Below are positions 623-57,526 of a stretch of 64,000 nucleotides of DNA, piece after piece. Source of the DNA: Tubulanus polymorphus (Eukaryota > Nemertea > Palaeonemertea > Tubulaniformes > Tubulanidae); contig NC_134027.1 of the NCBI RefSeq assembly GCF_964204645.1, forward strand, positions 3,522,485 through 3,586,484. Direction: 5' to 3'. Under the pieces are notes generated by a model. That model was not told the origin of the DNA. It saw nothing but the letters and a program-made list of their open reading frames with translations, and made no database searches. The translations under genes and the position numbers were made by a program. How positions within the stretch are numbered: position 1 is the stretch's first letter; each line of letters starts with the position of its first letter.

Positions 623-3600
623 ATGACTGCAGCTACCGTCAACACAGATTGGGAATTCCACGCTCCGCAATTTTTCGATTTTGCCAACCCGGAAGAATAC
701 GAAAATGACGAGGCCGATGCTTGGTTTGGTACGTTGATATACATTTTCAATCATAGGTCCTTACTCTTCCATGGAAGACACACTGGTGGTACTAACCTTG
801 GTTTGGTATTTCTAGTTTTTAAGTTACCTTTGCCAGTTGTTTAATAATTGTTACCCATTTCTGCTGTAAAAAATCATTATTAGGCCCTACATTCTGCACA
901 CTTTTTATACACTGCGCAGTTCAACCAAGCATATTTCTTCATTCATTACGTTAAGAAATATATAGGTCTGAATTATCTGTAATCTATAGTAATAATAATA
1001 CGTCGCAGTATCAGATATCGGCATTAATACGACGGGTAGGGGGTCTGCATTATACGATTTCATCCTGCATTTTTTTCAAAATAATGTTCTGTGTTTCTTC
1101 TTTCAGATGTACAAGAAACTACTGGTAACATTGATGATGAGTCTGGCTTTTGCGATGAAAGTCATCGAGAAGGACAAGGTAAACTGATAAAAACTGAACC
1201 TATGCAGAGGGAAGTGGACTATGATTTACGGGGCGCAAGACCAATTATCTAGGGCCTATTTTATTTCTAGAAAATCAATCGAAGAGGGGAGAAAAACGTC
1301 AAAGAACAACTGAATCAGTGTCGTCTATTCCTGAAGAGAGGTATTTCACAGTTTTTGACAATTAACCATTTGACTTACATATTTTTTTTGTTGCACACCA
1401 AGATAATTTGCTACAAGCAACATTAATGACATTAAATGTGATGCACGGACATAAACATCTTCACCCGTCAAGGGATTCGAACCCACTCTGCTAAAGCCGT
1501 TCCACGAACCCCTTGACCTCACGAGTCGTTACTATACGACCAGAATCAGGTCAGGCCAATCACAGCGCTTGTTACAAACGACATTAGGCATCTATGGAAT
1601 TTCCTGGTAAATAGACCAATCAGCGAACACGTAGCGAATGCGGAAGTATTGTCGTGTGTTGATATATGACGTCATGCGCAAAAGCGCCAGTAATGAAATC
1701 GCGCGTCGTGAGGCCAGGGGGCTGGTGGAAGCGAGTTCGGGAGCGATACCGGACCCCTGGCAAGCAAGGATGGGACGTAGAAATAAGATAGAAATAAGAC
1801 CTAGGCCAAAGAGTTATTGTTTAAACATATTTGTCATTTATATCCCATGCCTTTTGTCATTAAAGCCCCAGTGCTAAACGGAGGCGAGGCACTCCGCATA
1901 CACGCAGCACCTCTGTGAAGAAGGCCGTCAGGCGGGCGGTTCCATCGACAGGAAAACGTGCTACTCCAGTGGTACGAAGACCTCTGCGACCGAACAATCT
2001 GCCGACTGGTAAACCACCGATGACAATTAATAAATCAGCTGCTTCTCGCGTTAAAGTTCCAACCATTCCGGTTACACCAGCGTTTATGAGGTAGGGTCTA
2101 ATATTATTGTTATTGTTCTAAAGGATCTGTGAGAGGCTCATAAGAGTCTGTGGTTATCCTCTGAGTAGATGAGTTCATATAAACATTGACTAATTTGATA
2201 CTCTTCGTTTAGACAAATTGATGAAGCAAATTATTGATTTTGATGAATTGAGTCTTACAATTATGTGTCCCGTTTGATATGTTTTCAACAGGCGGAAACA
2301 AATGAAGACGACAACTGCAAAAACTACGGAACAGATTGAAATGGAGAAGATCGAAGAAAGTCGTCGTCAGGCTGAACAACAAAGAATTCTTGCGAAAAAA
2401 TCATACGAACAATTGAACTCGGCTAAAGGTCATATGCCTGCGTATTCGGCTAAACCGTTAACAAAACCTGATGAGTTTAACTTTCACACCGACACGCGTG
2501 TAAAAAGCCACGCGATGGAAACACGAAATGACATCAAGTCACAAGACTTCACGAGTATGCTTCGAAAACCAGACGTAGCAACAGTAAGTATTTGACTACT
2601 GTTAATCGTTATGTTATTGATACAGGAACTAAAGTGAACTGTGTTTATAGGTCTCATGTCATTATCATTATAAACGTGTTTATTTTTGTTATGAATTTCA
2701 ACTATTGAATAGATACAATAAACAGTTAAATCTTTTAGAAATAGAAAAAAACTTGTACCAAGTATTTGTGCATTAATTATTTATTAATGCAATTAATATA
2801 ATTCAGAGCGAGAGAACTTTTATAAACTCTTTAAATTGATAGTCACCAAACGAGCTGGATACCAATAGACGTCTGCCAGGCCTCCATCCATCTGATATTG
2901 AAGATGATGATGAGTTAGTCGAAACCGGCATCACGATGATTTCCAGATCTCTCCACGACTGAGATATCTCTGTTAAACCACTTACGGATAATACAAAATC
3001 TGTTAAATTATGGTTCCACTGTATAAAAGATTTATATTGCATTATTTGAACTTCAAAACAATCTCCATTTTTAGACATATCAAACGAAGGGTCCTACGGT
3101 GCCTAAGCCATTCTCTCTGCATGACAACAGACCTGCAGAACAGGGATACAAATTTGTGTCCGATGCTCAAAAATTGATAGCGTTTCAAAAGAATACTCCA
3201 GATAGATTCCATACGCGAGCTAGAAATAAAGGTAATTATTATTTCACTTTCTAATATATGCGTCGAGCCATTTTCTTATATTCCTTGAGATGCATTTTCT
3301 CTCCTGTGTTAACAGCGGCGACACCTCGTAGACACAGTCCTCGTTTGAATAAACTCACCGTAGCACGAACACCGAATTTAGAGACAAGATGTCGAAAAAG
3401 AAATATTCACATTGTTAGTCAAGCCGAAATGGAAGAAAAGGAAGTCGATGATATTAAACGGTAAATACCGCTCGCTATAGTGATATGATAGTACGTTATT
3501 CCATTTGTGATAAAATTTTGAATTACTTGATTTGCTTCGAATGAATTAGGTTTAAATTCCGTGCGAAACCTGTCAATAAGAAGGTATTAGATCAACCAGA

Positions 3601-5591
3601 AACATTGCCGGAAGTGACGGTGAAAGAGCCGACTGTACCACAACCTTTTAATCTTCACGCCGAACGTAGTCATGAACAAAAGTCTGTTGATGAGGAAAAA
3701 TACGAATTTCATGCTCAGCCCGTTCCAAAAAATATCCTAGGAGGAGTCGTAGTAAGTAATGGATTTAGTTCTGCTAATTCCTTCAATCAAAATGTAATGG
3801 ATTTACTGGTATAGGCTCTGTTTGAATATGTTTTTAGGGTGTCAAACCGGCTAAAGAAATCCAATGTACAGTTCCTGAATCGCCAGCATTCGCTCTGAAA
3901 AACAGGGTGCGATCCATAATGGATAAAACTAAAGTTCAGGTCGGTAAATTGCTTATAGCGTCCATCAAAATTGCTGTTAAATCCATGAGTTTATCTGTAC
4001 CAAAACATGATTAATTTGTCTACTTTCACTATAGGAGGAGCCTGACCAGATAACAGTTAAAGCTAACCCTGTTCCCCACTACGGTTTAGCATTCCAACCA
4101 AAATTGAATCATCGAAAAACTGTTCCGCAACCGTTTAGTTTTGAAGTTCGAGATAAAGATAAAATCCACGCGAAAGAAGAGAAAATAAAGCATGTTCTTG
4201 AAGAGGAGAAAAAGGTAAATGTTTGATGAATTCATATTGAAATCAAAAGTTACGGTAGATAATTGACTATTGATTTGATTTCAAGATGCATGTATTCCAC
4301 GCAAACCCTCTGCCTAGTTCATCACCAGATGATTTACCTGAGAAGAAAGTTAAGCCTAACACAAATCCGAAACCTTTCAATCTAGAAAGCGAAGTACGCG
4401 GCGCTTATAAAACTGGGGAGTGGACAAGAAAGGTTTGTATACAAAAGATTCATGAATCAGCTAAATTTCAAATGATGTAAATTATTCATCATTCCTATAT
4501 ACCGGGTATGTCTTAATTTTTTATATAGATGGAAGATGAAATAAAACATCAGCGTCATCAAGCATCCAGTTTTAAAGCTAGACCCAACCGTGTCACTTGT
4601 ATGAAACCTTTCGAACCAAAGAAAAGTGAGAGATCAGCTTTGGGTGAGTAGTTAATTCGAGGTCTGACGATCAATTGGTGGTCATGCGATATACCATTCT
4701 TCCTGTTAGTTAACCCATTTGGCTGTAGGTTTTTGATGCCTAAATAAACGTTTAAGCTAATGGCACAATCCAAAATCACTAACTGATCTAATTGATTTTA
4801 ACATTGAAGTCTTATAATGTGTTTGTGTTACACGCGGTCTTCAACTTCAGTTAATCTGTCCCCTTTAAATTTCTATGTCTGTTTTGTATTTTCACTGTAT
4901 TGTTCTGTCGAGCAAACATGGTCCCATTGTCCAAATTTCCATGTAAAACCTTATGTGTTATCATCCCCATCTCCTGTCGGGGACATACATTTGTAGTGAA
5001 AATAAATGCTGTTTAGATAGAACAGTATAAGAATTAAAATCATACTGGCTATTATATGGGATCTGCACGTAATGCGTAGTTCAATTCACAATACAGTTCA
5101 TAGAACTACGGATTATCTATTATCCACCTACACCATTTTAATGTACCAAAAAGCTTGGTCCCGACTGATACGGATTAACCGAGGTTGACTATATTCTTAA
5201 CTGCCACTTAGTGTTTAAGGTGAATGTGTTTCATATTTATATTTATGGATTTAACGTTAACAACTTTCCGTCATTCTCAGGGAAGGATGAATCTATTTCA
5301 GAGGTGTGCGAGATTGAATTGAACACGGATCGTCGCGCGGCAGAACGCAGAGATTTCGAACGTCGCAAACGAGAGAAAAAGCAGGAACTCGACGCCGTAC
5401 TGGACGAGGTGCGTAAACGCAAGGACACCGAAGAACAAGAAGAAATCGCGAGACTTCGCGCCGAAGCTGTTCATAAGTCGAAACCGATTCGACATTATAA
5501 ACCAGTCGTTATTCATGGTAGTGAGAAGACATTAACTACACCTATGTCGCCTAGATTCTCCGAACGTTTAGCTTTCAATAAGAAACAGTGA
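623..5591 (+). CDS. TPX2: TPX2 microtubule nucleation factor / Aurora A activator (13 exons, 705 aa)
   Basis: Exons: 623-728, 1107-1178, 1271-1340, 1872-2090, 2292-2583, 3075-3231, 3316-3460, 3550-3751, 3838-3939, 4035-4214, 4286-4432, 4529-4643, 5281-5591; the sum is 2118 nt. All introns are GT-AG and phases match. The N-terminus carries the Aurora-A-binding pattern: an aromatic-D/H-A-P block (WEFHAPQFFDF), then acidic residues and a DAWF motif, like YSYDAP...DSWF of vertebrate TPX2. The middle and C-terminus repeat the TPX2 pattern PxPFxL/FHAxP (VPKPFSLHD, VPQPFNLHAE, PKPFNLE). The last exon has the charged coiled coil and the terminal HKSKPIRHYKP / SPRFSERL block of the family's kinesin-5-binding end. 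In cells TPX2 promotes Ran-dependent spindle microtubule nucleation and activates Aurora A. Length is close to human (747 aa). The start is the first ATG of the frame and gives the expected N-terminus. It converges on CYLD. Confidence 0.95.
1440..1545 (-). repeat. tRNA-derived SINE-like sequence in TPX2 intron 3
   Basis: On the minus strand there is a good RNA polymerase III B box (GGGTTCGAATCCC, within about 1470-1486), preceded by a degenerate A-box-like stretch (CGTGAGGTCAAGG). The spacing is roughly that of a tRNA, but the acceptor and anticodon stems do not fold well. A SINE head or tRNA relic is more likely than a functional tRNA. Confidence 0.4.
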
Positions 5592-6033
5592 TGCGCAGTG
5601 TAGCTATTAATTTTCACAGTAGCGGGGTAGATAATTCATTGTTATGGAAATAATTTAGGTCTTTGCGTGAAAAACTGTGTGTGATATATCGAAGACATTG
5701 TGTAGAATGTATTTGAATCTATTTCTAACTTACGTATTACTGTTGATTTCGTTTTAAGGGGTATATTCCATTTCGAATCTCTATTTATCTCTAATCAGCT
5801 CCTGAAGGGCGCGTAGGATATCGCTTGAATTTACTGTGACTAGTTTTATCGGGGACTTCTGTCATGAAAAATTTACCAGACATTGAGCATAACAAGTCTT
5901 ACATTATTTCTCTTGGGATTAAGATTTTTCATGGTTAAAAACCACGTTGCCAATATTGCTTCCTAATTGTATCTTGTGAGCAGTTCTTTTATTATTTGTT
6001 GCAATTGTATGATATATCGTATGTTTTATCATT

Positions 6034-6039
6034 AATAAA
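6034..6039 (+). other. AATAAA polyadenylation signal, TPX2
   Basis: Canonical hexamer about 440 nt after the TPX2 stop codon, followed by TG-rich sequence. Best 3' end for the TPX2 transcript. Confidence 0.6.
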
Positions 6040-6479
6040 TTGAGTATGTGTAAATATGTAAATTGTCGTTTTAATTTTGATTTACTGAATCTCGGATCTG
6101 TTGAAGTTAGTAAGCATTTTATAAGGAGTCAATTAGCGAGTTGAGTGCGAACAGTGAGGAACAGTCGCATGTTTGCAGCAGAAGACGAAGTACTACTTTC
6201 TTTTGCTGCCACCATATTTGCTTTCGAAATACACAGGTGTAATTGAAAAATTCATCCAGCATTCGAGATTTTCCAGATAATAGGGCAAGCATGGCATCTT
6301 CAGTATTCTCTCTCGTCGTATAAGGCTAATGATATATCAGATTATGAAGACTAATATAAATGAATCTTTTTCAACTATTTTGCTGGGATCTGATGCATTT
6401 TATTTGGAAAAATTTAACAGTCCACTGTGTTTATACAATACATATTAACGGAAAAACAGGATCTCGTGGCATAATTGAA

Positions 6480-6485
6480 TTTATT
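6480..6485 (-). other. candidate AATAAA polyadenylation signal, CYLD
   Basis: TTTATT on the plus strand reads AATAAA on the CYLD strand, about 1.3 kb past its stop codon. Other hexamers are possible in this AT-rich stretch. Confidence 0.35.
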
Positions 6486-7772
6486 GATTGATATCTACAT
6501 ATCTGTTAAAATCAAACAAAATGAACGAGAATACGAAAGTCAAATGAAATTTTACTAAATGCCATGTTTAAGTCTGTATTTACAATGAGGCTATGACAAC
6601 GGCATAATTGAAAACCTTACCAGAACATTGCTATATACTTACTGCATCATCTTAGCAATTCATACTAAATTTGAACAATATGTCTTCAATGAAAAACCTT
6701 CATTTCGAGGAAAAATGTCAATGTAAATGTCTATGCTAGTTCAATTTTCAAACTAACACAAAGAATGAGTTCTTGCCAACTAAAATGATTTAACGATCTT
6801 TCATAATCATATTTTGTTAATTTAACAATTTCATGACCAAGCATTAAGAGCTTTTGTTTGCCTACATTATGAAACCGATTGATACTAATTGCAGTCTATT
6901 ATCTATAAATGTCTATAGCGATGAATAACTACTTTTCAATTATATATCATTCATAGTAAAATGATTTGCATCACATCATTAGCAGTTTGTACAGAAAAAG
7001 TGATTTCGAGTACTCGTAGTTTTAACAAATAGAAATTTGTAAAACTCAACAATTTTGGGACAACAATATACAAAAAAATTATTACGAATCACGGTTAGAA
7101 TTTTTGAAACATCCCTCACTTTCAAATTCTCATTTATGTACATGTACTAAGATTTGCGCTCAACTAAGTATCATTATATAGCATACGGTAGAATACCTAG
7201 GTAGGTGAAGCTGTGACTACAAAAATGATGACTGATTCTTTTTTTTAACAACAGAATCCATCCTTATCAAATGTCTAGCATGAAAATTGCCTAATGTTGC
7301 TAATTGAACAAACATATATCCATGTTAAATTGACTAAGCACATACGGTACATTTTGTACACATATATTTAACACAGATTTTCTGTGGACTTAATGATGTG
7401 ATTCGGATACGTAGCTACAATAGTCACACACAAATAAATAGTAAATAGATCGTATCACAAATTTTAGTACTAGAAGATAAAACGGTCTTCAAATTAAACT
7501 CATCAATATTCAAGGAAAGATTAGTCAGTAATATAAGTAAAATACATATCATTGGGATCGAATAAAATATGATTTCTTCACTGAACTATTTCGGGTTAAC
7601 TTTCCCCTTATATCCATGGTAAGGATTATCAGTACTTCTGAATTTAGTCTATCAATCCAAGAGCACAAGCTCACTTTCCTATTGACCCTTCAGCAAGCTG
7701 AAGATCAGCCACATCTTAGGTCACGAAAAATCAATTCCGGGTAAACCCATTTCGAAGTAGTTCCATCTACTT

Positions 7773-10700
7773 TCATTTATACATCATGACTTCTGTACTC
7801 TGATACATACACAAGTATGCATCACACAAAACCCGACGTGCATACGAAGGCAGCTGGCGATCTTCTTTCAGAGACAATATTCGCTCATGGTTATCATCAG
7901 CCAACCATTCCGGAAGCTCTTGACAAGGTTGAACTTCGGGAATATTATAGCCATGTTCTTGCCCTATAAGAACAAATGAGACACTTTATATGCATGTTAC
8001 AATCTTTATTTGTATCGTCATATGCTCAGTTATTTCTAGCCAGTCTTAGTTAATTTTTTCTTAACGCGGTATTTACCCATGCGATCAGCCATGCTGTCAA
8101 AGAAAACCCACGGTGCTTTTCTTCCTGGTCCACATTTAACAAACGCTACGTAGTGACTAGTCTCAATACAAACAACGGCAAAGAGCTCCATCATTTCATG
8201 GTCAATCTGTACATTACCATCCCCTAACAGTTCCTTCTGCTGGTTGAGAAAATCTTTGTAAGTTTCCGGTACTATTATTGGCCGAGAAATGTGTTTAGTA
8301 CGTTCTGCATGCCGGCTGTGGGTCTGGAAAAAATAGCACAAGTCTAATAATTGAAATCTGAAAGAGAGTTCAATTATCCTGGTACATGAAAATTCTTACC
8401 AGATTGAAACATTTTCCACAAAAAGATGTCTTCCCTGAAAAGTGATTGTAACACTGCTTGCATTCACATTCAGCCAGACATCCACAGACTGCACACTCTC
8501 TAGGAGCTAGAATGAATGATAGATGACTTTATTACTTAGAATGCCTATTCCATATGTCATAATACTAGAAACCAGTATCATGAAACTCACCATTCATCAG
8601 TATATCGGTGATATCCAAATACAAACTGGGGACAATACGCTGATACATTTTGTAATCCTTGCCAAATCTAGGCATCTGCAGTATCAAACAAGATGGTATC
8701 TGAAATATGAAAGTCATAATTTCTTAACTAAGCAAATTCGATGAATCACCTTTCATTGTAGAGCATTGCATAAAAACCTCTCATCATACCTCAGCTAATT
8801 TGATATCAGATTGCAGAAAAGACAAATTCAGAAGTTGCTGTGTTGTAGGCAGGACAATTTTCTCATCTTTTTCAATGAATAACTGGTAGAAATACGATTC
8901 CTGTCCAGAGCTGGAAATAATCACTAAAATCAGATACACACAAAGAAGAATGGCACATGTATCACCTTATTAAGTTATTCATCAGTACCTCAGTTTTATC
9001 AAAGGATCTGCTTTCAATGTCTGTTGCAATAGTGAATTGAGAAATTCTTCTGGATCTGCATGAGAGACACATACATACAAAACATGTTTCCTTAATTCAT
9101 TAATTGAACGATATATTAAATTTGTCTGACTGCTCACCTTTTTCCTCACCCATCATGCCATTGACTGAACTGAGTTTGTCAAGAAATGTCCTCAGTTTTA
9201 ACAATTTGTCGGCTCTTACATAGAAAAACCTATAATACGTAATGTAACGGTGTAAAGAGAGAGACTAAGCTGGTGAGGTCACCTGTTGATCAGAAAATGA
9301 ACTATTAGTACACTCCCATTAGTAATGGGGAATGAATAATGGTGTGGATTTCATCTGTTCCACTCAGTGAAGACATCAATTTTCCGTATCAAGCGAAATA
9401 TTGGCAACTGAATCTATCGGTGTAAAAACTCACTTTCTTAAAGGATTCACAATCGACTCTCGGAGAACCTTTTGTATTTCTTCATACTCGTCTAAATCAG
9501 TAGCCTTCTTTGGTCGATGAAGAATTGTATCAAATACTTGCGTAAATGCAAACATACTAAACAATGTTGCATCCAAGTAACACGAGTTATGGTGACCCTG
9601 TAGACCTTTATTCTTCCCACAAATATTTGGCAGGTTTTTTTCAACTGTTGGTGGTGAAACATTACCCGGTATGTCTGGACTTTCTTCACTACCAAAGGCT
9701 GTAATAAATTTTATATTCTCAATTTTACACATAGCAGTAAATGACACCTGAGACAGCAAACAGAAGGCGTAATTCCTTACTTGGTTCTCCAGTTCCATTC
9801 AGGTTTTTTGTTTCCTGGAAGCGTGGGTCCTTGCGCACTTTATTTAGATAAACAAAAAATCCTTTCTTCGAAGGACAGCTAAAAATACGTCGGCCATTGA
9901 ATGTTCCATCTAAACATGCAGCGCATTCTTCTTCCTATCAAAGACATTCAATTCAGTTCACTAATCCTAATACATATATAAGTCATGTAAATAGCGACAT
10001 TATCAAACACAACTCACCATTTCTAGTCCAGCCACTAGTTTATTACGATCCTTCGCCTCTGGTAAACAACCGATCCATCGAATAACCCCGTAACGCGGAG
10101 GATTCTCTAAAACCTCGACCACTGATCCAATCTCTAAGTCCGCAGTATTCGAATTCAGTGATGTATTTTTTGGGGCCGATGAATCTGAATTTTTACGCGA
10201 TCGCTCTGATCTACCGTTATAAACGCTGTTACCATTATTTGTGACGTAGCTGCCCGCTACAGAATGTTCAGAACGGTTTCTATTAGTCGACGTATTATTA
10301 CCATTCGACTTTTTATCTGTACTTTCACTGCTACAACTACTACTGCTACTACAAGAAGGTTCTACAATTTGCGGTACGTCTTTTAACAGCTTCGGTTTGT
10401 AATGTTCTGAATTTGGGGGATAAACCGGACTTGTATTCTCGGGACTGGAAGAATCTGTGAGATCACTCAAATTGCTAATTCCACTAATATTACTAATGTT
10501 ACTTGGACTTTGCGATATTCCTGAAAGTCTACACATTCCATTTTCATGTTCCAACGTGTCGCTGCAGGTGTCTGAAAAATATACACATAAACATAAGTAA
10601 ATGTAAATATAATTTTTCACTGTAATGATGAGCCCAATACAAACAAGACGCGAGAAATATCTTTTTACTGGTACTTACCATGGTTCATATCTATGTATGA

Positions 10701-13700
10701 AGGTCTAACTGGTTCAATATCAGCTGTCACAGTGTGAACATTTTTGGAATTGGAATTTTTCAGAACTGACGGTCGAGTGGCATTGGGCGATAATGGAGAA
10801 CGTAGCATCGGTTCATTTGTCTCTGGTAATCCGTCATTACTAAACGAAATCGCCTTTTTCTTTTCAGTTTTGATATGTCCACTTCGTGTAGGTGGCAAAC
10901 CTTTACTGTTACTGCTGCTGCTGCTGGAAGACTGAGCAGAACTAGTTTTACTATGAGAATCAAGTGAACTAGCGCGTGTTTGTTGCAATGACCTTTTCTG
11001 ATCTCGCAGCACATCAGTTTCCTCTTTGCCCGTCTGTTTGCTAGCCATTTTAACAGCTAACGTAGGACTCATAGCATTAGTGTCATTATGATCTGAAAAT
11101 GGATACCATTTAGAAGTAGTCTTGTAAAAATTAATAACTAAATTGCATAGACTTCATTTTTAGAAAAAAACACCCAAAATCGGAAGAACAGGTAGCATAT
11201 ATGTTTCTAAAGTTTCTGATTTATATAAATCGGGGGTGGGTCTAAAAAATTGGAAAGCAGGTCCAAAAGAAGTGGGAGAGCATTCCTTGGATGAAGCAGC
11301 CATGCCGATAGATCCCCTTGGTGCTAGTAAAGAAATATACACCTGAAAAGATGCAATTTCTTAAACGATAAGTGTCATATTTACAGGTTATCATGATCTT
11401 TGTCTTGACAAAAAGGGCAACTTAATGGGAAGGTAGAGAACCAGACCTCCGAACGTACTCAGAAGTATTATGCCTGAAACATCAGAACGATATGCTAGCT
11501 GAACCAATGTGCTTCTTCTGTCCAATTGTGGATATTTAATTCTGCTACCAGCTTAAGATTGGTATTGGTCTAATTACAATCTCAGCCTTTGACTATCAAA
11601 TACGTATATTTACAGGTTTTTTCAGATTTTTGCCGTCTGTCATTCGGCTTGTGTACAGAAGAATAAGTATTAAATCCACTGGTGCCCGAATCAGAACTAG
11701 AGCTTTTGTCATCACGTTTCAGTTTTGGACGCGTTCGAGGTCTCTCAAAATCTGAATGAAAAAAATATCATAAATATCTTCTGTTAAGAATAAATACATG
11801 TATTAGAAACACCTCAGTAAAATGGAAGACTTTTTCCACTAAGTTTTCTTTTTAATGCTCAGAGGCTTGTGTGAAGCTCATATTACACGTACAATGAATG
11901 ATTATCAACAGGTTTAACTCAGTAAATTGTCACCAGGTATAACTATAATTTTTCCATACCACAGAAAGAAATACTGTAGTCCATGAAGGAAATAAACAAT
12001 GCGAACCTACTAGTGATCTGAATAAGGCTCTGTGGGTTGAGGGACATACATAGGAAGTTGTAGAGTAAGACTACTCAACTTTCTATATATGTTCCTCAAC
12101 CCACAGAGCCCTATTCAGATCATTGGTAGGTTCACAGTGTTTATTTCCCTCATGCAGGAGGGAAGTCAGAGCACTCTACCACCACTAACATTGGAACGCG
12201 TTGATGAGAACAGTGACATGACTTCAAACCCATATGCCGTGACACTTCAATGAAAGTGAAAGTATATTTTTTAAATTTTATGAGCATTTTGAAAATCTAT
12301 AGCACAAAACTATGTATAATGTACGTCACTCGGGGTGGACTTTGAGCGCTATATTTGACATTCAAACCTGATAAAGGCTCGTCAGTCAACTGTTGATCCT
12401 TCATATTACCAGTTTCTTCCTCTCCAATAACAACATAATCATCAATGCTTTGTGGTCCTATAGCGTAGGTACTGGTGCTTGTATCGAAAGTCTTGTCTTC
12501 AAAATGTGTCGAGGTAAAAGAATCAGGAGACCTATAGCTTCTAGATAGATAATTCGTGATCTTTCTATTATTCATATCTTCATCTTGGTGTCTGCTTCTA
12601 TGTTTCATATCTTCATCTTGGTGTTTGTTTCCATGTTTCATATCTTCATCTTGGTGTTTGTTTCTATATTTCATATCTTCATCTTGGTGTTTGTTTCTAT
12701 GTTTCATATCTTCATCTTGGTGTTTGTTTCTATGTTTCATATCTTCATCTTGGTGTTTGTTTCTATGTTTCATATCTTCATCTTGGTGTTTGTTTCTATG
12801 TTTCATATCTTCATCTTGGTGTTTGTTTCTATGTTTCATATCTTCATCTTGGTGTTTGTTTCTATGTTTCATATCTTCATCTTGGTGTTTGTTTCTATGT
12901 TTCATATCTTCATCTTGGTGTTTGTTTCTATATTTCATATCTTCATCTCGGTGTCCATCAGCTTTTCCATCCAAATGATCCTGACTTCCATTGTATTCTG
13001 AATGTCCATCCATCTTGTTTTTACTGCCTGATGAATTGCTGGATCTTTTAGTCAAATGAATGCTAGGCGAAATGTCTTCAGATCTTCTACTCTGATGTTT
13101 GTCACCGAAGTGATCATGTTGAAATCTAAGATCCGATTTGTCACTGTCACAATTCGAGTCATACTGATTTCCTATTCCATTTTGTTTCAAATCCATGGTT
13201 AGAAATTTCACAACTTTTTCAAAGGAGTTACTCATAAACATAAACACAAATCCGATATAGATAATGAATTTCAGGTATAAATAGAGAATATTCCAAACAG
13301 TAAGTACGAGAAATGAATTCCAGTTCCAAAAGATTTTGATAATCCCAGCTACAATATTACAAAGTAATATGTAGACACGCCAGAAAGGACTTATAAAGAA
13401 GTAGTCCACAATTAACATAGCCAGCACTGAGTGTTTCACCACTGACGACTGAATAACTGTCATGTGAATATTCGCCGTATTCCTAGTGTACAGGCAAATA
13501 ATGCAAGTGAAAATCAATACGGGGTAAAACCCAAGGTTATTTATGTTCAAAGGCTGCATTATCTAAGTATTCACAATGAATATTATTAAACGCAGTCATT
13601 CAGGATTATTATGTGGGTTGAACAAGACCCATTTCATGAACTGATACTTTTCATCAACCACGGTAAGCTAATAACACATAGAATCAAGATATATACGTTA

Positions 13701-16700
13701 CCGATGAGAGGCATTTTCACATGAGTGGGTGGATTTAAAAATTCCTCTTCTTTCATTAATCCCATGATTGGTACGAGCGATGCATGATCAGACTTAGTTT
13801 TAAACAGTTGTTGATCTTTGTATTTTCCGGTTCCCGACCCGACCGGGTTGTCCTAAAATATCGAAATGATAAATACCCAAGTCTTATTCATTTCCATAAA
13901 TTACATGATATACATTTATTCAGATATAACAGATATATGGAACAGATAGAACAGATATATATTAAAAAAATATTTAAAAAACATTCATTTGGAAAAACCT
14001 TCTATTTCCCTGATTCTCAACTCGGTGAAATAATTTCAGTCCTAACAGATTGGGTTTACTGTATGAAAACTTGTATACTTACAAATTCGACACCGACTGT
14101 GACTTCATCGGGTACATCAGGCAGGTATCCGATCCAGCGGACTGTACCGTATTCCGGGCCTCTATCGCTCAGCCAAACAACGCGTTCATTTTCAACTAAC
14201 TGATGCTGTCCAGTTGACCGCATTGCCATCGCCATAATTGGTGATGTAGCCGATGGTGGAGTTGCTATTGATGTAGTTGAACTGATACTAGAATACTGAG
14301 GAGTAGAAGGTGATGGTGTATACACAGGAGGAGGTACCGATGGCACAGCTGTATGATGATGATGATGGTGACTGTGCTGGTTTTGTCCGGGTCCACGGAA
14401 ACGCCGGATTTTTGAGATATTCACGAATATTCCACTGTCCGGTTCACACATGAAATAACGTTGACTCGACAATGTTCCATCAGTCGTTCCTCTACCTTTA
14501 TTTTCCTGAAATGAGAAATTCAAAATTACTGTGTAACTCAAGGGTTTTTTTCATAGATAGGGGATGACCCATTCCGCGGTATCGCTGCCTTAGCTTTGAA
14601 AGATAGAAAACCACTCGCAATTATTCAATCTATTAAATGTTGTTTATTCAATGTCTTACTGGAAATGATATTATTGCAGAGAGAATGAATACACGCTGAG
14701 TATCTGCGTTATGCTACTGATAATAATTCAGGCAGGAATTGATTAATCAATGAAACACTACTGGATCATCGAAATAACAAGAATAGATTGAAACATCCAA
14801 TAGTCCGTTCCCTGACAAAAATGTTATCACTCCAGTTGGGGGCTGGGCATTAATTGATAAGTTTTGTTTGCAGAAATATTGGCAGCCACAATAATCCAAC
14901 CTCCATCTTAATTGATAAATGTATCGACTGTTGACTTTCTTGCCTGGCATTTTCCTATCGTTTTTGCCCGTTCGCCACATTTTAGTAGCCATAGTGAACG
15001 TTATAAGTATTACACTCCTTTAACTGATCAGGTGATAAAACCCAGATCAGAGCATTTGCCAGTTGTATTAGGCGAGGCAATTAATTACCAGAAAACAAAT
15101 GTGTTAGAAACAGCAGTAAGAATTTTACGAAATACTCAATCACTGTAATTACGAAGATTATTGAAGGGAATGAACATACCGCTACGCGAATACCATTGCA
15201 CCAAACTATCACCCTGCTGGATTCTAATCTAAACTGTAGAATGGCATCAACAAAAATGTCATGTCAGACTTTGATGAAATCGTGTTTCTATCCCAGATTC
15301 ATGTTTACATTTATGCTCCTAAGAAAGGTTAACCATTTCCAATACAGCAAAATCATCAAAAGAAGGCTGATAATACAGTACCAGCTGTCAGTATGGATGA
15401 GAGTTGAAATTTAACCTTGATGGGAATAAATGCCTATAAACTCTTCTTCAGTTAAGTTTCCTGGATACAATAAAAAAAGAATATATCACCATTATCCGAA
15501 TATCCGAATAAGACGTGGATTTCGTTCCATTGCGACGCTAAGACTTTATAACGTTACCATAAAGAATCTACCAAAGATGACAAGAAAAGTTTTTTCAAAG
15601 AAAATAATTGTTTTGATGAGTGTATGCGAGTACTCTACAGAATAAATGAATCTATTCAACTCTACGAGATATGACGAGGTAGAAATTTGGATAAGAAGAG
15701 CTGAATGAAGCTAGAATCGACATTCCACAGATAAAGCTGCAGCTGTGCCAGAATAATTCCAACAAACAGTTCGTTCTCATCAGTGTGAGAAATATGGAAA
15801 AATACAACAAAGATTAAATGTTACAAAGACTCTGACATGACTGTCACAACCCAGTCACAACCCAGTACGGTACAGCATTTTCTCCTACAACAACAAAGGT
15901 GTTATAATGAATAACCTATTCAATCAAAGATCATATTTTGGAAGGTACTTGGAAGGTCTGATGAAGAATTTTGGGATGGAGAAATCTCAATCAGAGTGTA
16001 CAAATACCAAAAATACCACAAGGTATGGCATAAGGGGGTTTGAATTTGTGCTGCAACTCGGTAGAATACTGTCATCTGATATTAATCAGCTGCCGGAAAA
16101 ACATCTTCAGTGCGTATTCTTCCGCCTGGATTTCGTAACAGAATGAAAACAAGCTAAAGCAAACAACAAGCACGCTGCGCAACAGAACATCCTACATTAT
16201 ACTCTCCGCTCCTACTTAGGTAGGTACTTCAACCTTTCCTTTACTCATGAATTCATATCCTTTGACCTCAGCGCGAGGATGTAATAAATAAAACATTATG
16301 ACCTCTCTACCTCGCTTTTCACTCTACCTTGAAGGTAAATACAGTCTGTTTATATGGACATATATTAAAGGTTGCCCGTGCTGATGTTGGAATGATACTT
16401 CCAGCTGGTGGAAATGCTGAGAAATCATACCGCAATGGATTCCACCGACGCAAACTTTTTGACGTCAGATGCAAGGTGCATTTCAGAATTCTATTGGGTG
16501 AGAATGATTCAACCTTAGTGAATTCTGCCAGATGTTCATTTTAATACTGTGTGGCCTACCGTAAAGCACATAGCTAGCCTTTATAGGAAGATGGCAATAC
16601 GTCTAATAAAGTATCTATGACATTATGTATGTTACTGAGCCTTCACCTCAAATATTATTCCAGAAAATATATATTTATATATATATACAACAGATATAGA

Positions 16701-19700
16701 TTTTAAAAACTTATTAGTTTATAGCTCATCCTACATTTTCCATAAAATCCTTCCTGATATAAACTCTGATCATGTACGGAATCCCACAGCTCTGCTGTGA
16801 ATAGGGACTACTCAGTGGGTTGATGAGATATCATGTAGCCGAGACATTTCAAATAAAAGGTCGACGAAAGATTTCTAAATAGACTTTAAGACATTTAAGC
16901 GAATGTGACAGTTAATTTGGTGAGAGTATCCGGTATGCCTGGTCAGCTCAACGGTGGCTTATCACCGCATTAGTTCTGTCAACAAACCCTCGTCAGGACT
17001 TTCTCTTAATGGAATTTGCGATGGTTGAGACAGCATTCATACAGCATTTGATTTTGCACTTCAAAGAGAAGGCAAAACTAGCAATTAATCATTAATCATC
17101 ATTGGCATATTCCTTTGAGCACTCCAGTCAATGTGCTACCTTAACTAATATCAATATTTCTAGCTAACTGCGGTTTGTCATTCTTGTAAAAAATTGAAAA
17201 TATTGATGCCACTATTGATGCTATTGTGTTATAGAGGATCCCGATGATGAAATCGAACAAAACCTTCATAAACCACAAACATTATCAGCAAACTGAGTCA
17301 GAGAAAACCACAAAGGTATGGTAAGGATCAGACCCAGACATCATTAGTAATATATGATATATTTTTAACCTGGGCCAGATTTGGCCCGTGCCCAATTAGG
17401 CCGCGACCGTCCGTTCACAGTGGTGCCAAATGGGGCCGTGTGTGTTTGATAGACTAAATTATGCCCGACAAAACCGTCGGACCAGGCCTGTGCCACATTT
17501 ATTGGTAGAATTATTCTGTGTGTATGCAACTTGGTTCTGGAAGTGACTTTTCCGCGCTTCTAATTACATCTATTTGATAGCATTTATGAGTTGAGTGATT
17601 TATAGGTGAACGCATTCTCTTATTACGCATGGGTCAAATTTGACTCGGGCCTGGTGCAGGCCAGTTTGACCCGGGCCAAATAGTTTCCGTGTGATCGTGA
17701 TAGCATACATTCATTAGCACGTAAGCAAGATAATTAACACGCCAATCAGGTCTCGTAAGTAATTATCGAAGAACCATAGGGATTGAAGAAATAATTAAAA
17801 ACAAATTATCTTATCAAACTGTCTTGGTTTGATATGAAAGCTAGGGACCTTTTAATCTAAGAGAAATCATCTTTGACTTACGCTTAATCAATAACGAGTT
17901 CAGAAATGTTCAGCAAGTACTAGTCATTACATTTCCTAACTGGAAGCATTATATAATGAACATCATCTGTAGGAATATTCCTAATTATAAACTGTACAAA
18001 GATTCAATTAGTAAAGTAAGAAGCGCATCTGATACCCAGATGATTCCTACCAATCTAAAGCTGTAATTCTACCATCCTTTACTGAGCCTGGCCATAATCC
18101 ACAGCCACTCATATATTGAATATATGACAACTGGAAATTTGCCATAGTTCGATGTTTTTAGCAGAAACAGAATCAAGTCATTGCCTGAACCGCTGTAGTT
18201 AACGCCTACACACAGACAGGCCTACATCTTTACATATCAATGACACGATAATTTTTAAACCGGTTGTCGTATCATGGAAACCATGCCATAATTCGAAATT
18301 GGTGATCGGCATTAAACAAACAATATGGCTGTTTGATGAAAACAGATGATTTTGAGATGTACGTAATTTGTATGCAGAGGAGATAGATTACGCTTTAATG
18401 ACTGCAAATCAAATCTCATTGCATCCGTAATGATAAATAGCCACATGAATATTTGAACACAACCAGCAGAGGAGACTCTTAAAATAGAGGCTTATGGCAA
18501 AAATCATGATATATGTCTAAATCAGAAAACTTTGATTCTTATGATAAAAGTTGTTTTAGGTGGAGTGCTCGGTGCTAAAAGCAATTATTTTCAGCTGCTT
18601 GGGGAAAAACTAATGATAGACTTAAACTCAAAATAAATTGGGGAATAGTGAAAATTTATCGTTAAATTCATTATAAATCAGTTTAATAATTTCTTAGGTG
18701 TAATCCACACTAGCGAATGTTGCTTCCATGCTGGTTTTACAATGAAGCGATGAACAAGAATTCTGTACAACAAAACGCCAGCAGTAAACTATGTTATCCT
18801 TGGCACACACAGATCTGTAAGTTATATACAGCCTATACCTAAGTAACGAATGTTCAGCACCGAAGCTTATACCTTCCTCGTATTTATATATACCTGACGT
18901 ACTGCTGTATAGGAACGGTACATAAAGGTATTTGAGAAATTGTGTTACTGAATAAAATGTATGATGCACATAGCATATTTGCATGTACAACATATGTAAC
19001 TAAAAATACAATCAAACTCTGAATTAAATCATGCACTTAGCCAAGGTTATACCCAGCAATATCAAATTATGTATTGGCTTTTGAATATCTTATTTTCATC
19101 GGTAAGATCTTCCGAAATAGCATAATCAGGGGTAACCCCGAGAACTTAAACTCATCACAATCTACTTCTGAATTTGATGTCAGACTTTCAATATTTTTTG
19201 ATATGGTACCACACTAGCCATAAAACTATTAGCAAAGCAAAAACTGTTCCCGTTATCATAAACCATCGCTTAAACTGTTGATGAAATGATAGATGGTACA
19301 GGATTCAAAAACAATTCAAGCATCATGCAGCATGGAAATCATAAGCTATAGGCTACAGCCATATAATTAAGAAATAATGTTTTTGAAACAGAAAGGTTCT
19401 ACACCTTAAAACTCACCAATAGTTCAACACCAAACCATAAACCCCTTATTCCTGTCAAACATCCTTTGTATCGAATGATGCCCGAAGCGCGATCTGGTAG
19501 GTTTGGGTAATGTAATATTGAAACAAAATCCGAAACCAGTAAATTCAGTCCTTCGTCGAGCCATTGCTGGTCATCAAACACTTTCACTCTATCTGCACAT
19601 GTACTGATAGATGCCAATAATAAATACTGTTCAAATGTTATCTTCGACACATCGTTTGGTGGACAACTTAATATAAGATTATCAAAATCTAATGACGCGA

Positions 19701-19890
19701 AGTATGAAAATCCGATCTTCTCGTGTTTCTTGGTTTGTTTATCCTCGTAATCTTTCCATAACGTTCCCGGTAGTACGGTTATTTCATCGCCGGCTTTTTG
19801 TCGTGATAAAAATCCAGTTTTTTCCTTCTTGTTCGCGATGTGTTCTTTTTTAAGAATATAACGAGGTCTCTGTTGTGTGTCTGATGCCAT
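7773..19890 (-). CDS. CYLD: CYLD deubiquitinase (15 exons, 1168 aa)
   Basis: Exons in transcript order: 19890-19417, 14505-14083, 13852-13702, 11751-11614, 11092-10679, 10571-10018, 9934-9781, 9698-9434, 9229-9138, 9055-8989, 8910-8790, 8699-8591, 8506-8400, 8323-8077, 7963-7773. The sum is 3507 nt; phases agree throughout. Three CAP-Gly domains are visible. The first spans exons 1-2 ([20 protein letters not shown]). The second spans exons 2-3 ([10 protein letters not shown], then [15 protein letters not shown]). The third spans exons 6-7 ([12 protein letters not shown], then [14 protein letters not shown]). Serine-rich disordered linkers lie between. The USP domain has the catalytic Cys at about residue 809 ([13 protein letters not shown]) and the His at about 1080 (ETSHYVAFV). 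A cysteine-rich B-box-like insert is in exon 13 and the terminal [11 protein letters not shown] block is intact. CYLD cleaves K63- and M1-linked ubiquitin chains and restrains NF-kB/JNK signalling. It is longer than human (956 aa) because of the linkers. Confidence 0.97.
11982..12155. repeat. foldback (inverted repeat) element in CYLD intron 3
   Basis: The left arm, starting at catgaaggaaataaacaatg, reappears reverse-complemented ending ...gtttatttccctcatg. The arms are each about 75-80 nt with few mismatches and meet at a short centre near 12065-12075. Key matching blocks are GGCTCTGTGGGTTGAGG on the left and CCTCAACCCACAGAGCC on the right. Consistent with a MITE-like or foldback element, or a recent inverted duplication. 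No target-site duplication was confirmed. Confidence 0.8.
12297..13559 (-). CDS. nested ORF in CYLD intron 3: putative multi-pass membrane protein with 11-residue repeats (420 aa)
   Basis: A 420-codon open frame lies entirely inside CYLD intron 3 (13701-11752), on the same strand. CYLD exons 3 and 4 join in phase without it (phase 1 to phase 1, [11 protein letters not shown]), so it is not needed for CYLD. Residues about 11-25, 44-57, 60-79 and 82-109 are strongly hydrophobic (for example [11 protein letters not shown] and [12 protein letters not shown]), suggesting three or four membrane segments. Then comes a polar segment, about 13 tandem copies of an 11-residue unit ([11 protein letters not shown], about residues 200-340), and an acidic tail ending HSFVL. 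The start is the first ATG after an in-frame TAG, with A at -3. No family was recognised. It could be a single-exon nested gene or the first exon of a longer one; a donor-like CAG/GTTTGA lies near 12368. A chance open frame is possible, but more than 120 hydrophobic codons plus a repeat kept in frame argue against it. Confidence 0.5.
   Translation of the reverse strand: MQPLNINNLGFYPVLIFTCIICLYTRNTANIHMTVIQSSVVKHSVLAMLIVDYFFISPFWRVYILLCNIVAGIIKIFWNWNSFLVLTVWNILYLYLKFIIYIGFVFMFMSNSFEKVVKFLTMDLKQNGIGNQYDSNCDSDKSDLRFQHDHFGDKHQSRRSEDISPSIHLTKRSSNSSGSKNKMDGHSEYNGSQDHLDGKADGHRDEDMKYRNKHQDEDMKHRNKHQDEDMKHRNKHQDEDMKHRNKHQDEDMKHRNKHQDEDMKHRNKHQDEDMKHRNKHQDEDMKHRNKHQDEDMKYRNKHQDEDMKHGNKHQDEDMKHRSRHQDEDMNNRKITNYLSRSYRSPDSFTSTHFEDKTFDTSTSTYAIGPQSIDDYVVIGEEETGNMKDQQLTDEPLSGLNVKYSAQSPPRVTYIIHSFVL
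12571..12955 (-). repeat. 33-bp tandem repeat (minisatellite), in frame in the nested ORF
   Basis: About 12 near-identical 33-bp units run without spacers. On the minus strand each encodes an 11-residue unit ([11 protein letters not shown]). Central copies are almost identical; edge copies vary (KYRNK, KHGNK, KHRSR, MNNRK), the usual sign of array turnover. The unit length is a multiple of three, so copy-number change keeps the frame. Confidence 0.9.
14506..19416. other. CYLD intron 1 (4.9 kb)
   Basis: The intron separates exon 1 from exon 2 and splits the first CAP-Gly domain. Frames of 60-80 codons between about 14.9 and 16.5 kb show no recognisable domain. A short TA-rich run is at about 16660-16690. 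A GC-rich, inverted-repeat-containing patch at 17369-17700 is listed separately. Nothing else identifiable. Confidence 0.6.
17369..17700. mobile_element. possible degraded MITE-like element in CYLD intron 1
   Basis: Two GC-rich ends flank an AT-rich middle. The left end holds CTGGGCCAGATTTGGCCCG and the right end holds GACCCGGGCCAAATAG. The reverse complement of the right end shares TTTGGCCCG with the left end. Several GGCC palindromes and GGGTCAAATTTGACTC occur inside. The composition differs from the surrounding intron. The termini and any target duplication are unclear, so this is tentative. Confidence 0.3.
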
Positions 19891-20571
19891 TTTGAGGGTA
19901 AACTATGAACAGCCATAAGATTAATATCCTGATTAAAGTAAAGCGGTGTACTAATAGTGAGTGTGGGAGTGAGTTCGGCTATCAGACTGAGTGCTTTATC
20001 AGAGTTCTACATCTGAATGAAGTGCAAGACGTGTGTCGTAGACAATCCTCTGCCTGGTTCGTGTGTAGCTCCTTACTTTTTTATAGTTAATTAACACCGG
20101 TCTAATTACTCCTGACACTAATCAATTATTTGTAAGCAGTAAGTGAAAATAATATATCTAAACACGATAGTACACACCTTTACACCACTGCATCAACGTG
20201 AGCACTCATCCGTAGACAACATCAACATCATCAGCTGCTGCCGGGGTATCCCGATCGGGGATTCCCTTCAGCCTTGGTATCATTTATCACCTACAGAGGC
20301 AGCACCTGACGGTGTCTATGAATACAGTTTAATAATCTATTTCGATGTTTAAAAACCTGTATTTTGTAATTTTTGTGTTGTCCCTCTTACCTGCTTACTT
20401 ACGCAGAGGGTTGCTCGTGGAGTAATCATTTGAAATGATTACTCCAAGGTTCAAATGATTACTCTAAGGTTTAATGTAGATAAAAGAAAACCAATCACAC
20501 CAACCATTTGGTAATGATTACCTGCAGCTTTCCCACACTAAGAACATTTCACAATTTTTCCAACAAAACTA
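19891..20571. promoter_or_regulatory. CYLD upstream region / NDUFS6 downstream region
   Basis: This lies upstream of the CYLD start codon and should hold the CYLD promoter and leader; the NDUFS6 transcript ends at its distal side. A perfect 27-bp palindrome at 20419-20445 is followed by a near-repeat of its right arm. No coding frame is supported. Confidence 0.4.
20419..20445. repeat. perfect 27-bp palindrome with a direct partial repeat
   Basis: Arms GGAGTAATCATTT and AAATGATTACTCC flank a single central G. The right arm recurs at about 20451-20467 as CAAATGATTACTCTAAGG, so the arm sequence occurs three times in 50 bp. It is about 530 bp upstream of the CYLD ATG. Confidence 0.75.
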
Positions 20572-20577
20572 TTTATT
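20572..20577 (-). other. AATAAA polyadenylation signal, NDUFS6
   Basis: TTTATT on the plus strand gives AATAAA on the NDUFS6 strand, about 200 nt after its stop codon. Confidence 0.5.
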
Positions 20578-20772
20578 ACATATCATGTATATATAATAAG
20601 TTCATAAATCATATTACAATAATTTCAAATCTAGTTTCATACAATATCTTTGACCGTTTATATCCAAATATCTAATCAAGATTTTGATGTAATCTGAATC
20701 TTTGAAGAATTTGTTAAACTACATTTCAAGCGAGCACAACTACGTATGTACAAGATCACAGAGCGATGAAAA

Positions 20773-21620
20773 CTAATGTCCATGGCTTCCATCTAGATAG
20801 AACCTCAAACCACAGTATCCACAAGTATGATTACCAGGTTGATCCTGAAAACAGTAATATACCATATGAAGCAATACTCAACGCTTATTATATAATTTCA
20901 GTGGATTTCAATAATCATTCAGTGGTCTTATAACATACCAGGTTGATAAAAACTTTAGGATGACCAAGTGGGCCGCCACCACCATCGCAATGCACTACTC
21001 TCTCTGTGCATGCCTTTGGAGGAACCTCAGCAATTAAATCTATAGCAAAATTCTTATTGACCTAATGATTATGAAAAAAAAGAAGAAAAATGAACAATAT
21101 ATCTAAAATAAAAATTTAACAAACAAAAGTATTGCAGCAGTTTGTTGTCGGTCTAAGATGTTCAATCAGCTCAACTTAAAAAGGCATCCTTTTAACTTAC
21201 CACTTTGCTCTTTCCATCATTGAATCTTGCTAGTCTCCAATCATTCTGCTCAAATTTCTAAAACAGATTACTTATTGTCTTTATACATTGCATAAACAAA
21301 TTGTCACTAAATCAAGAAAGGCCCCGAGAATTTTCACTTTTCCTCCACTCCAGACAGACGTAAAAGTCCAACAACCAGAGCAGGACAAAACTGTCGGTCA
21401 AGAGAGACAGGAAGAAAACTCCACCACCAGATCCCATTCCCCAAAACTATTTGATAGATTAATCTCATTTCATGTATTTTATTACCTGTCCAGTGTGTAT
21501 TTGGAAATCTTCCCCTGACTGTGACTGTGTAGAGTATAGTAATTTGGACCCTCTGTTGATCATAGGCCCGAATCTAGAAAAATATCGAGATTTTGTAACG
21601 ATGTTGCCTAAGGTCGCCAT
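20773..21620 (-). CDS. NDUFS6: NADH:ubiquinone oxidoreductase iron-sulfur protein 6 (4 exons, 128 aa)
   Basis: Exons: 21620-21486, 21257-21201, 21061-20939, 20844-20773, all phase 0, total 387 nt. The product is the complex I accessory subunit of the N-module/Q-module junction in the mitochondrial matrix; it binds zinc and is needed late in assembly. The sequence shows HTGQ followed by a DWRLARF block, [33 protein letters not shown], and the terminal CGYCGLRF. The conserved zinc ligands (Cys in VVHC, His in LGHP, and the CGYC pair) are all present. The first 40 residues are basic and hydroxylated ([17 protein letters not shown]), a good mitochondrial presequence. The frame stays open upstream to an ATG at 21707, but the 21620 ATG gives the family's usual length (human 124 aa) and presequence. 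Head-to-head with CIAPIN1. Confidence 0.95.
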
Positions 21621-22084: not shown

Positions 22085-23501
22085 ATGGTAGCGTCAGTTG
22101 ATATAAAGAGTGGGCAGACTGTCTTGCTGTTGTGGGGTGGAAAGGAATCTCCGCCAGAATCGATTAATTCAGTTGTGTCTGAGCTAAACAAGAAGGTTGC
22201 CGCAACTGGTAAAGTACAAGTCGAGCATGTCGAACGGTTACACCTTTGTAAGTTTAAAGCACAGACTAGTTTTCATATAAATGAACTGTTGAATGAAGGA
22301 GTCATTGATTTATAAAATAATGTTTGAATATTTTAGCCGCTCATAAAGACTCATCATTTGACGTCGCCCTGTCCGGCTTTTTACACCCTGCATCTGTGAT
22401 ACATGATTCGGATGTTCTTGTTGAAGTTGCACGTATTCTCAAACCTAGCGGATGTTTTTATTTGAGGGAACCTACCACTGATACGGATGGTGACAAATTG
22501 AGATCTGCTGAAAAGTTAGCTTCTTCGTTAAAGCTAGCCGGCTTTGTCAATGTATCCAATGTAAGTGAACAGGCATTCAATCATATATATATATTAACAG
22601 TAAGAAGTGTCTTGTAGATATGCATTTATGACATCCAATTTTATAGTTGTATTGGTTTAGAAATATTTGGGTATGCTTAAGGTAAAGAATCTATTAATAA
22701 TTTAGTTAAGTCTTAAGAATCTATTTATAATTTACTTAAGGCCAGCCGCTTATCACTTACACCAGCAGAACTGAAGGATATTCAACAGGCTTTAGCATTA
22801 ACATTAGATGTATGTTTAACTCAAATAAGTGGTCAAAAGCCCGCGTATGAGGTTGGAGCGCAGACTCGGTTGAAATTGTCGTTTGGTGCCAAAAGTAAGT
22901 TCATCATCATTGAGAGATACACATTGGTTTACTTAACTACATCATTCAACTTACTAATTGATACATGTTTTTGTAGAACCTAAAGATGTTGTAAAGACTG
23001 CCGCAGTTTGGTCACTTTCCGCTAATGATGTCCTTGATGATGATATTATTGATTCTGATGCACTATTGGACGAGGAAGATCTTAAGAAGCCTGACCCAAA
23101 ATCTCTAAAAGGTTCGGAATAATTTCCAAAGACCTAACCGTGACTTTTTGTACCATATATTGTATTATCGTCTTAATCACAGCTGAATGCGGTCCAAATT
23201 CTGGTCGTAAGAAAGCATGCAAGAACTGTAACTGTGGTTTGGCTGATGAATTAGATGCAGGAGGAACGCCTACACAAAAAACACCTCAACAAGCATCTGC
23301 TTGCGGAAGTGTAAGTTCATGTTCCAATATGTGATGATCTGACTGATATTTCATTTTGATAACACAAATCTTTAAATTTTGTTTCAGTGCTATCTCGGTG
23401 ATGCATTCCGTTGCGCGAGTTGTCCTTATCTTGGGATGCCGGCTTTTAAACCTGGAGATAAGGTTACACTCAGTGAAAGGCAACTGAAAGCTGACACATG
23501 A
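22085..23501 (+). CDS. CIAPIN1: anamorsin, cytosolic Fe-S cluster assembly factor (6 exons, 305 aa)
   Basis: Exons: 22085-22247, 22337-22560, 22741-22894, 22977-23111, 23183-23310, 23388-23501; total 918 nt. The N-terminal half is the SAM-methyltransferase-like fold ([28 protein letters not shown]). Then comes the linker with [19 protein letters not shown] and EEDLKKPDP, the family's DRE2-type segment. The C-terminus carries two Fe-S motifs. The first is [17 protein letters not shown] (C-X9-C-X2-C-X-C). The second is [17 protein letters not shown] (C-X2-C-X7-C-X2-C), spanning the exon 5/6 junction. It ends in [11 protein letters not shown]. With the diflavin reductase NDOR1 it passes electrons to the cytosolic Fe-S assembly pathway. 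Length is as expected (human 312 aa). Oddities: the exon 4 donor is G/GTTCGG, a weak site, and the exon 3 acceptor region is duplicated. Confidence 0.96.
22683..22740 (+). repeat. tandem duplication at the 3' end of CIAPIN1 intron 2
   Basis: Two copies of about 28 bp (22683-22710 and 22712-22740), each containing AAGAATCTATT followed by an A/T-rich tract and TTAAG. The second copy is the acceptor of exon 3; the first is a potential competing acceptor. Confidence 0.8.

Positions 23502-29449: not shown

Positions 29450-57526
<28,077 letters not shown>

Follow-up and report, generated by a model that had tools for sequence, protein, structure and literature searches.

A putative nested gene for a membrane protein within an intron of CYLD in Tubulanus polymorphus

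Introduction

Lineage-specific genes that consist of a single exon and reside within an intron of a host gene are a known kind of nested gene. The host gene considered here, CYLD, also produces splice isoforms, as exemplified by murine short CYLD (sCYLD), which is described as lacking exons 7 and 8 because these are skipped (PMC10320722); the main text of that review contains the word 'transmembrane' 0 times. Another member of the USP family of deubiquitinases, USP19, is given a transmembrane segment by alternative splicing, and the resulting USP19-ER form is described as having its active site facing the cytosol and as taking its ER anchor from alternative use of the last exon (PMC9842591). 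Among the matches listed for literature titles, no title described a nested gene inside CYLD or a form of CYLD anchored to a membrane.

Here we analyse a stretch of 64,000 nucleotides from the nemertean Tubulanus polymorphus (contig NC_134027.1, positions 3,522,485 to 3,586,484, assembly GCF_964204645.1), hereafter called the window, in which intron 3 of CYLD carries a 420-codon open reading frame (ORF). From its sequence, we consider this ORF to be a putative nested gene, lineage-specific and free of introns, whose product would be a small membrane protein that carries a long charged tail. This is the best of the readings weighed below, and we judge its chance of being correct to be about even.

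A long open reading frame in CYLD intron 3

The host gene lies on the minus strand, where a USP exon matches human CYLD (2vhf, E = 2.4e-21) and a CAP-Gly exon matches PF01302 (E = 1.6e-12). Eight coding exons were traced (19890–19417, 14505–14083, 13852–13702, 11751–11614, 11092–10679, 10571–10018, 9934–9781 and 9698–9434), and these contain no stop when joined. Later exons of the USP domain are seen as open frames outside the joined chain of exons 1–8. A preliminary description of this DNA had claimed that CYLD exons 3 and 4 join in phase without the intronic ORF, and the traced exons agree, with a junction in phase 1.

The neighbouring genes are on the strand opposite CYLD: a TPX2-like gene at 2278–5591 (+) (PF06886, E = 2e-16) and CIAPIN1/anamorsin at 22085–23334 (+) (PF20922, E = 8e-28). 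Farther along the window, positions 53615–57526 (+) hold a 1303-codon zinc-finger ORF with PLDLS-type motifs, which is presumably teashirt-like.

The intronic ORF is found exactly where it had been reported, at 12297–13559 on the minus strand, which is also that of CYLD. It begins with an ATG at 13559 and ends with a TAG stop at 12299–12297, and an in-frame TAG is located two codons 5′ of the ATG, with one codon between them. The complete frame falls within a single intron, bounded by exons 3 and 4, and its ATG lies just 142 bp beyond exon 3. The AT-rich setting noted previously is reflected in GC values of 0.295–0.375 across the ORF, as measured in 200-base windows. The two flanking exons, the ORF and its parts are arranged as follows.

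13702–13852, minus strand: CYLD exon 3 (end of CAP-Gly 2), which ends in phase 1
12297–13559, minus strand: the ORF, ATG to TAG, 420 codons
13200–13559, minus strand: part A, hydrophobic, residues 1–120; it contains five short hydrophobic segments, of which two are predicted to be favourable for membrane insertion
12957–13199, minus strand: part B, a Ser/Asp/Lys-rich polar segment, residues 121–201
12562–12954, minus strand: 33-bp tandem repeat, 11.9 copies, unit [11 protein letters not shown]
12300–12560, minus strand: part C, a tail with an acidic segment and the motif DDYVVI (LIR-like)
11614–11751, minus strand: CYLD exon 4 (low-complexity polar linker), which starts and ends in phase 1

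Residues 1–120 carry a net charge of +5, and part B (−3), the repeat (−1) and the tail (−6) are all negative. An acidic stretch is present near the C-terminal end.

Coding signal compared with chance

The tandem 11-residue charged repeat that had been claimed for this ORF corresponds to the 33-bp array, which consists of 11 nearly identical [11 protein letters not shown] units and one diverged unit, and which contributes about 132 of the 420 codons. Because an array of this kind inflates the length of the ORF, it was collapsed before the frame was compared with chance. With the array collapsed, the sense strand of the intron still has an open run of 300 codons. By comparison, the longest runs in 3000 simulated introns (second-order Markov) had a mean of 77 codons, a 99th percentile of 138 and a maximum of 229. 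This residual run rules out an artefact produced by the repeat alone. Across the six frames of roughly 35 kb of window sequence presumed to be noncoding, open runs reach at most 145 codons. The 120 codons of part A, taken by themselves, stay open in 1.5e-4 of 20,000 simulations with the composition of the intron and in 4e-4 of 20,000 simulations with the composition of part A itself.

Bias among codon positions was assessed separately for part A and for parts B and C together. Part A yields G = 24.6. Of 1131 overlapping noncoding windows, 0.53% attain this value, as do 0.17% of 3000 stop-free simulations with the composition of part A. Parts B and C together yield G = 30.6, which is reached by 0.23% of 3000 stop-free simulations. 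When these regions are divided further, part B gives 2.0% and part C a borderline 5.9% of 3000 stop-free simulations, and the first and second halves of part A give 2.9% and 13.7% (the latter not significant) of 3000 simulations.

Codon scores, expressed as bits per codon, divide the ORF differently. The known exons range from −0.02 to +0.25, and both part B (+0.20) and the repeat (+0.24) resemble them; part C (+0.071) is intermediate, and part A (−0.34) appears noncoding-like. For reference, 106 presumed noncoding open runs of at least 60 codons have a mean score of −0.18 and a maximum of +0.070. The training set for this score contains no membrane protein, and so the low value of part A may stem from its hydrophobic make-up. 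In this genome, the choice among synonymous codons carries no information, as known exons score about 0. Overall, the length of the open run and the codon-position bias exceed what chance provides, although the codon score of part A speaks against coding. The ORF is probably coding, and is probably an orphan within the libraries searched (see below).

These measurements also bear on the idea that the ORF is a chance or decayed frame in a noncoding intron, which grew longer as a 33-bp repeat, with a unit that happens to lack stops, expanded. This idea would account for the share of codons that the array supplies, and the hydrophobicity of part A is near the expectation from its T-rich composition (see below). 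Moreover, by our own estimate, a genome of 268 Mb presents so many trials that one such run may be due to chance. However, the 300 codons left after collapse exceed all 3000 simulations, and the codon-position bias, present both in part A and in parts B and C when tested separately, argues here against a run that arose by chance somewhere in the genome. We retain this explanation as a quite improbable one because the whole genome offers many trials.

Hydrophobic segments, repeat and tail

The three or four hydrophobic segments in the preliminary description are real, with five counted here, but they are mostly marginal. On an approximate membrane-insertion scale, segments 10–26 and 94–110 are favourable, whereas segments 41–57, 59–75 and 77–93 are mildly unfavourable. 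At most 0.05% of 2000 simulations with the composition of the CYLD intron attain the mean hydropathy of part A, but 9% of 2000 simulations with the T-rich composition of part A itself do so, and much of its hydrophobicity thus follows from that composition. The label 'membrane-protein-like' must be qualified in the same way, and a membrane protein is a plausible prediction for the product of the ORF.

Within the array, 5 substitutions occur among the 11 core units and 10 in the diverged unit, all of which change the amino acid. There is no sign of purifying selection in the repeat, for which the possible changes are 83 non-synonymous versus 11 synonymous and the test has almost no power. The near identity of the units suggests recent expansion or homogenization. 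The lack of stops in the 33-bp repeat also gives rise to open frames of 141–163 codons on the opposite strand, at 12549–13051 (+).

In the tail, the sequence DDYVVI fits a rule for LIR motifs. Because a match is also present in 17% of 5000 shuffles of the tail, the reading of DDYVVI as a putative LIR motif is only a hint.

Orphan status and genomic copies

No family had been recognized for this ORF previously, and the same outcome holds in Pfam, NCBIfam, PHROGs, PDB, viral contigs, phages and prokaryotic genomes. Specifically, neither the ORF nor two of its sub-parts match a Pfam family at E ≤ 1. Three sub-parts without the repeat reach at best E = 0.03 in NCBIfam (12.8 bits against a cut-off of 587) and E = 0.29 in PHROGs. 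The best PDB sequences, at E = 0.4 for the ORF and E = 0.22 for residues 1–129, are each a GPR3 chain, and we take these matches to reflect composition. Residues 1–186 have no relative among phages at E ≤ 0.01, and the same residues, searched as six exact 8-residue patterns, have none among viral contigs or prokaryotic genomes, in a search that detects close relatives only. The predicted orphan status therefore applies within the Pfam, NCBIfam, PHROGs, PDB, viral, phage and prokaryotic sets and the animal's own genome.

The genome assembly (267.8 Mb, 77 contigs) contains the ORF at one locus, along with an identical copy on a 244-kb contig called C13. The USP exon of CYLD is likewise found only at this locus and on C13. 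Three long blocks of C13 match the window at 98.9–99.6% and one 1.5-kb block matches at 96.3%. Given the identity of these long blocks, the sequence indicates that C13 carries the alternative haplotype, and we reject a second gene. Between C13 and window positions 6000–21000 there are zero differences, and so the haplotypes, being identical over the ORF, furnish no measure of selection and their dN/dS is uninformative. This difference-free region is either a stretch of haplotype identity or an assembly artefact. Elsewhere, 2-kb bins of C13 differ from the window by up to 39 substitutions.

No paralog was detected: residues 1–186, the tail and the DNA of parts A and B with the upstream intron have no other match at E < 0.1 in the genome, where the DNA search skips very common words. 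The best non-self match to residues 1–186 has E = 0.23 and 5 stops, and seven other genomic matches to the whole ORF cover only the charged repeat (residues 203–332, 23–33% identity).

Two further candidates were rejected. A recent duplication or multi-copy element is unsupported in the assembly, in which only the locus and the C13 copy were matched. A transposon or viral gene does not fit one locus plus a haplotype copy, the lack of any relative of residues 1–186 in viral contigs and phages, and the PHROGs value given above.

Possible splicing of the ORF

The ORF had also been proposed to be the first exon of a longer gene, and two donor-like sites near its 3′ end are relevant to this possibility.

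12409–12410, minus strand: donor-like site CTG/GTAATA, last exon base 12410, phase 1, score 4.96
12367–12368, minus strand: donor-like site CAG/GTTTGA, last exon base 12368, phase 1, score 4.48

Both sites share the phase of CYLD exon 4, and CYLD itself might therefore be the longer gene, a possibility to which the evidence points weakly. The ORF would then be an alternative first exon of CYLD, which starts just upstream of 13559 under the control of an internal promoter and is spliced from 12368 (or 12410) to exon 4, with the final 23 (or 37) codons of the frame becoming intron. The product would have neither CAP-Gly1 nor CAP-Gly2 and would consist of an N-terminal membrane anchor of several segments, a charged/acidic repeat linker, CAP-Gly3 and the USP domain. 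The joined frame is indeed free of stops through exons 4–8, from CAP-Gly3 into the start of the USP domain, and the two donor scores exceed those of three of the eight donors of exons 1–8 (4.42, 4.04 and 2.69). Furthermore, the 14 codons of 12410–12369 have a codon score of +0.33, compared with −0.07 over the 23 codons that follow 12368. Codon-position bias extends as far as 12369 (G = 17.9, 2.4% of 3000) and is not seen beyond it (G = 3.3, 82%).

However, 0.37 in-phase donors with scores of at least 4.5 are expected by chance in the 264-nt tail, where one is seen (12410), and the site at 12368 falls just under this threshold. The drop over 23 codons is also underpowered, in that −0.07 lies between the noncoding mean of −0.18 (sd 0.19) and the coding mean of +0.17 (sd 0.15). 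On this balance of sequence features, an alternative first exon of CYLD is doubtful.

A CYLD exon of another type, either internal (a cassette) or terminal, might use part of the same frame to follow CAP-Gly2 with a charged linker, either alone or together with a hydrophobic segment; as a terminal exon, it would be the last exon and end at 12297. In-phase acceptors exist at 13348 (3.2), 13441 (1.3) and 13027 (1.4). All six cassettes tried, with either donor, leave exons 1–8 free of stops, and all three terminal versions stay open to the ORF stop, as the earlier suggestion of an alternative terminal exon would have it. In addition, part B resembles the linker exons of CYLD in codon composition. 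Nevertheless, these in-phase acceptors are weak, the best acceptor within the ORF (13482, score 5.7) is out of phase with exon 3, and an exon of this type does not account for much of the hydrophobic part, which is open and codon-biased. The acceptor scale performs poorly at its low end, as two of the seven acceptors of CYLD exons 2–8 score 2.26 (9934) and −0.75 (9698). We therefore keep a cassette or terminal exon under consideration as unlikely, because every frame tried is open and the scale gives the real acceptor at 9698 only −0.75.

The donor-like sites, along with a hydrophobic part of several segments that precedes a charged linker, would likewise suit the first exon of a different multi-exon membrane gene whose later exons lie elsewhere, for instance one for a RING-type membrane E3 ligase, a kind of protein that its product may resemble. 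Such later exons, however, would have to be interleaved with those of CYLD, and we judge a gene of this sort very improbable. Three RING patterns (regular expressions) match nowhere in the six frames of the window, in a search that would miss a RING split by an intron. Neither this search nor the Pfam search of the ORF described above gives any sign of a RING domain.

The nested gene as the favoured reading

We favour a lineage-specific nested gene, as had been suggested at the outset among other options, because the frame is long and open, has codon-position bias, occurs at a single locus and has no relatives among the sequences searched. This suggestion stands as the best of several readings, with the others retained at the lower probabilities given above. 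Countering it are the noncoding-like codon usage of part A and the borderline codon-position bias of part C alone, and the 142-bp gap between exon 3 and the ATG leaves little room for an intronic promoter.

For a nested gene, we infer transcription, translation, membrane insertion, topology and partner binding as follows. Transcription would start in or near CYLD exon 3 or intron 3 and would end near an AATAAA at 12145, and translation would begin at the ATG at 13559. The hydrophobic first 120 residues would insert into a membrane, probably one derived from the ER. If the protein is inserted in this manner, the charged tail is probably cytosolic, such that a hydrophilic region of roughly 300 residues, including the polar linker, would face the cytosol. 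The charged 11-residue repeat might serve as a spacer or as a multivalent binding surface, and DDYVVI at the acidic end could bind a partner as a short linear motif.

The proposed end of the transcript coincides with a structured element downstream of the ORF.

11982–12154, minus strand: near-perfect RNA hairpin between the ORF stop and CYLD exon 4, which carries AATAAA at 12145

In the 548 nt downstream of the ORF there are two AATAAA or ATTAAA sequences, where about 1.0 is expected by chance, and their number is thus not above chance. The 173-nt hairpin has 79-nt arms that are 89% complementary and a predicted energy of −119 kcal/mol (z = −22). It was first suspected to belong to a repeat family, but its DNA finds only itself in the genome. 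A search with a 23-nt stretch of an arm that allowed up to 3 mismatches hit the arms on C3 and on C13, along with a single 3-mismatch site on C11. Because a second copy was not found in the genome, the hairpin is probably not a repeat family. It could form a hairpin RNA or a structure relevant to splicing.

Comparison with known systems

In common with nested intronic single-exon genes, the ORF lies uninterrupted inside one intron, at one locus and with no relatives found. It differs from them in that it shares the strand, and hence the pre-mRNA, of its host, and in being known from sequence alone. If it is a nested gene, it would encode an unclassified orphan membrane protein and would represent a clean case for the origin of genes inside introns.

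The less probable use of the ORF as a first exon of CYLD would have its closest counterparts among deubiquitinase isoforms, and it would show that a lineage-specific exon can rewire the localization of this enzyme. The isoforms of CYLD described with sCYLD concern the same host gene and likewise alter which binding regions accompany the USP domain (PMC10320722). However, sCYLD arises from the skipping of exons, whereas here CYLD would gain an N-terminal exon that encodes a hydrophobic region. A membrane-anchored CYLD would be comparable in principle to USP19-ER, which is described as a deubiquitinase with a spliced-in membrane segment (PMC9842591), and the alternative first exon would work in the same way. 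The segment of USP19, which is a different gene, is C-terminal and comes from the last exon, whereas that of CYLD would be N-terminal and would come from an alternative first exon.
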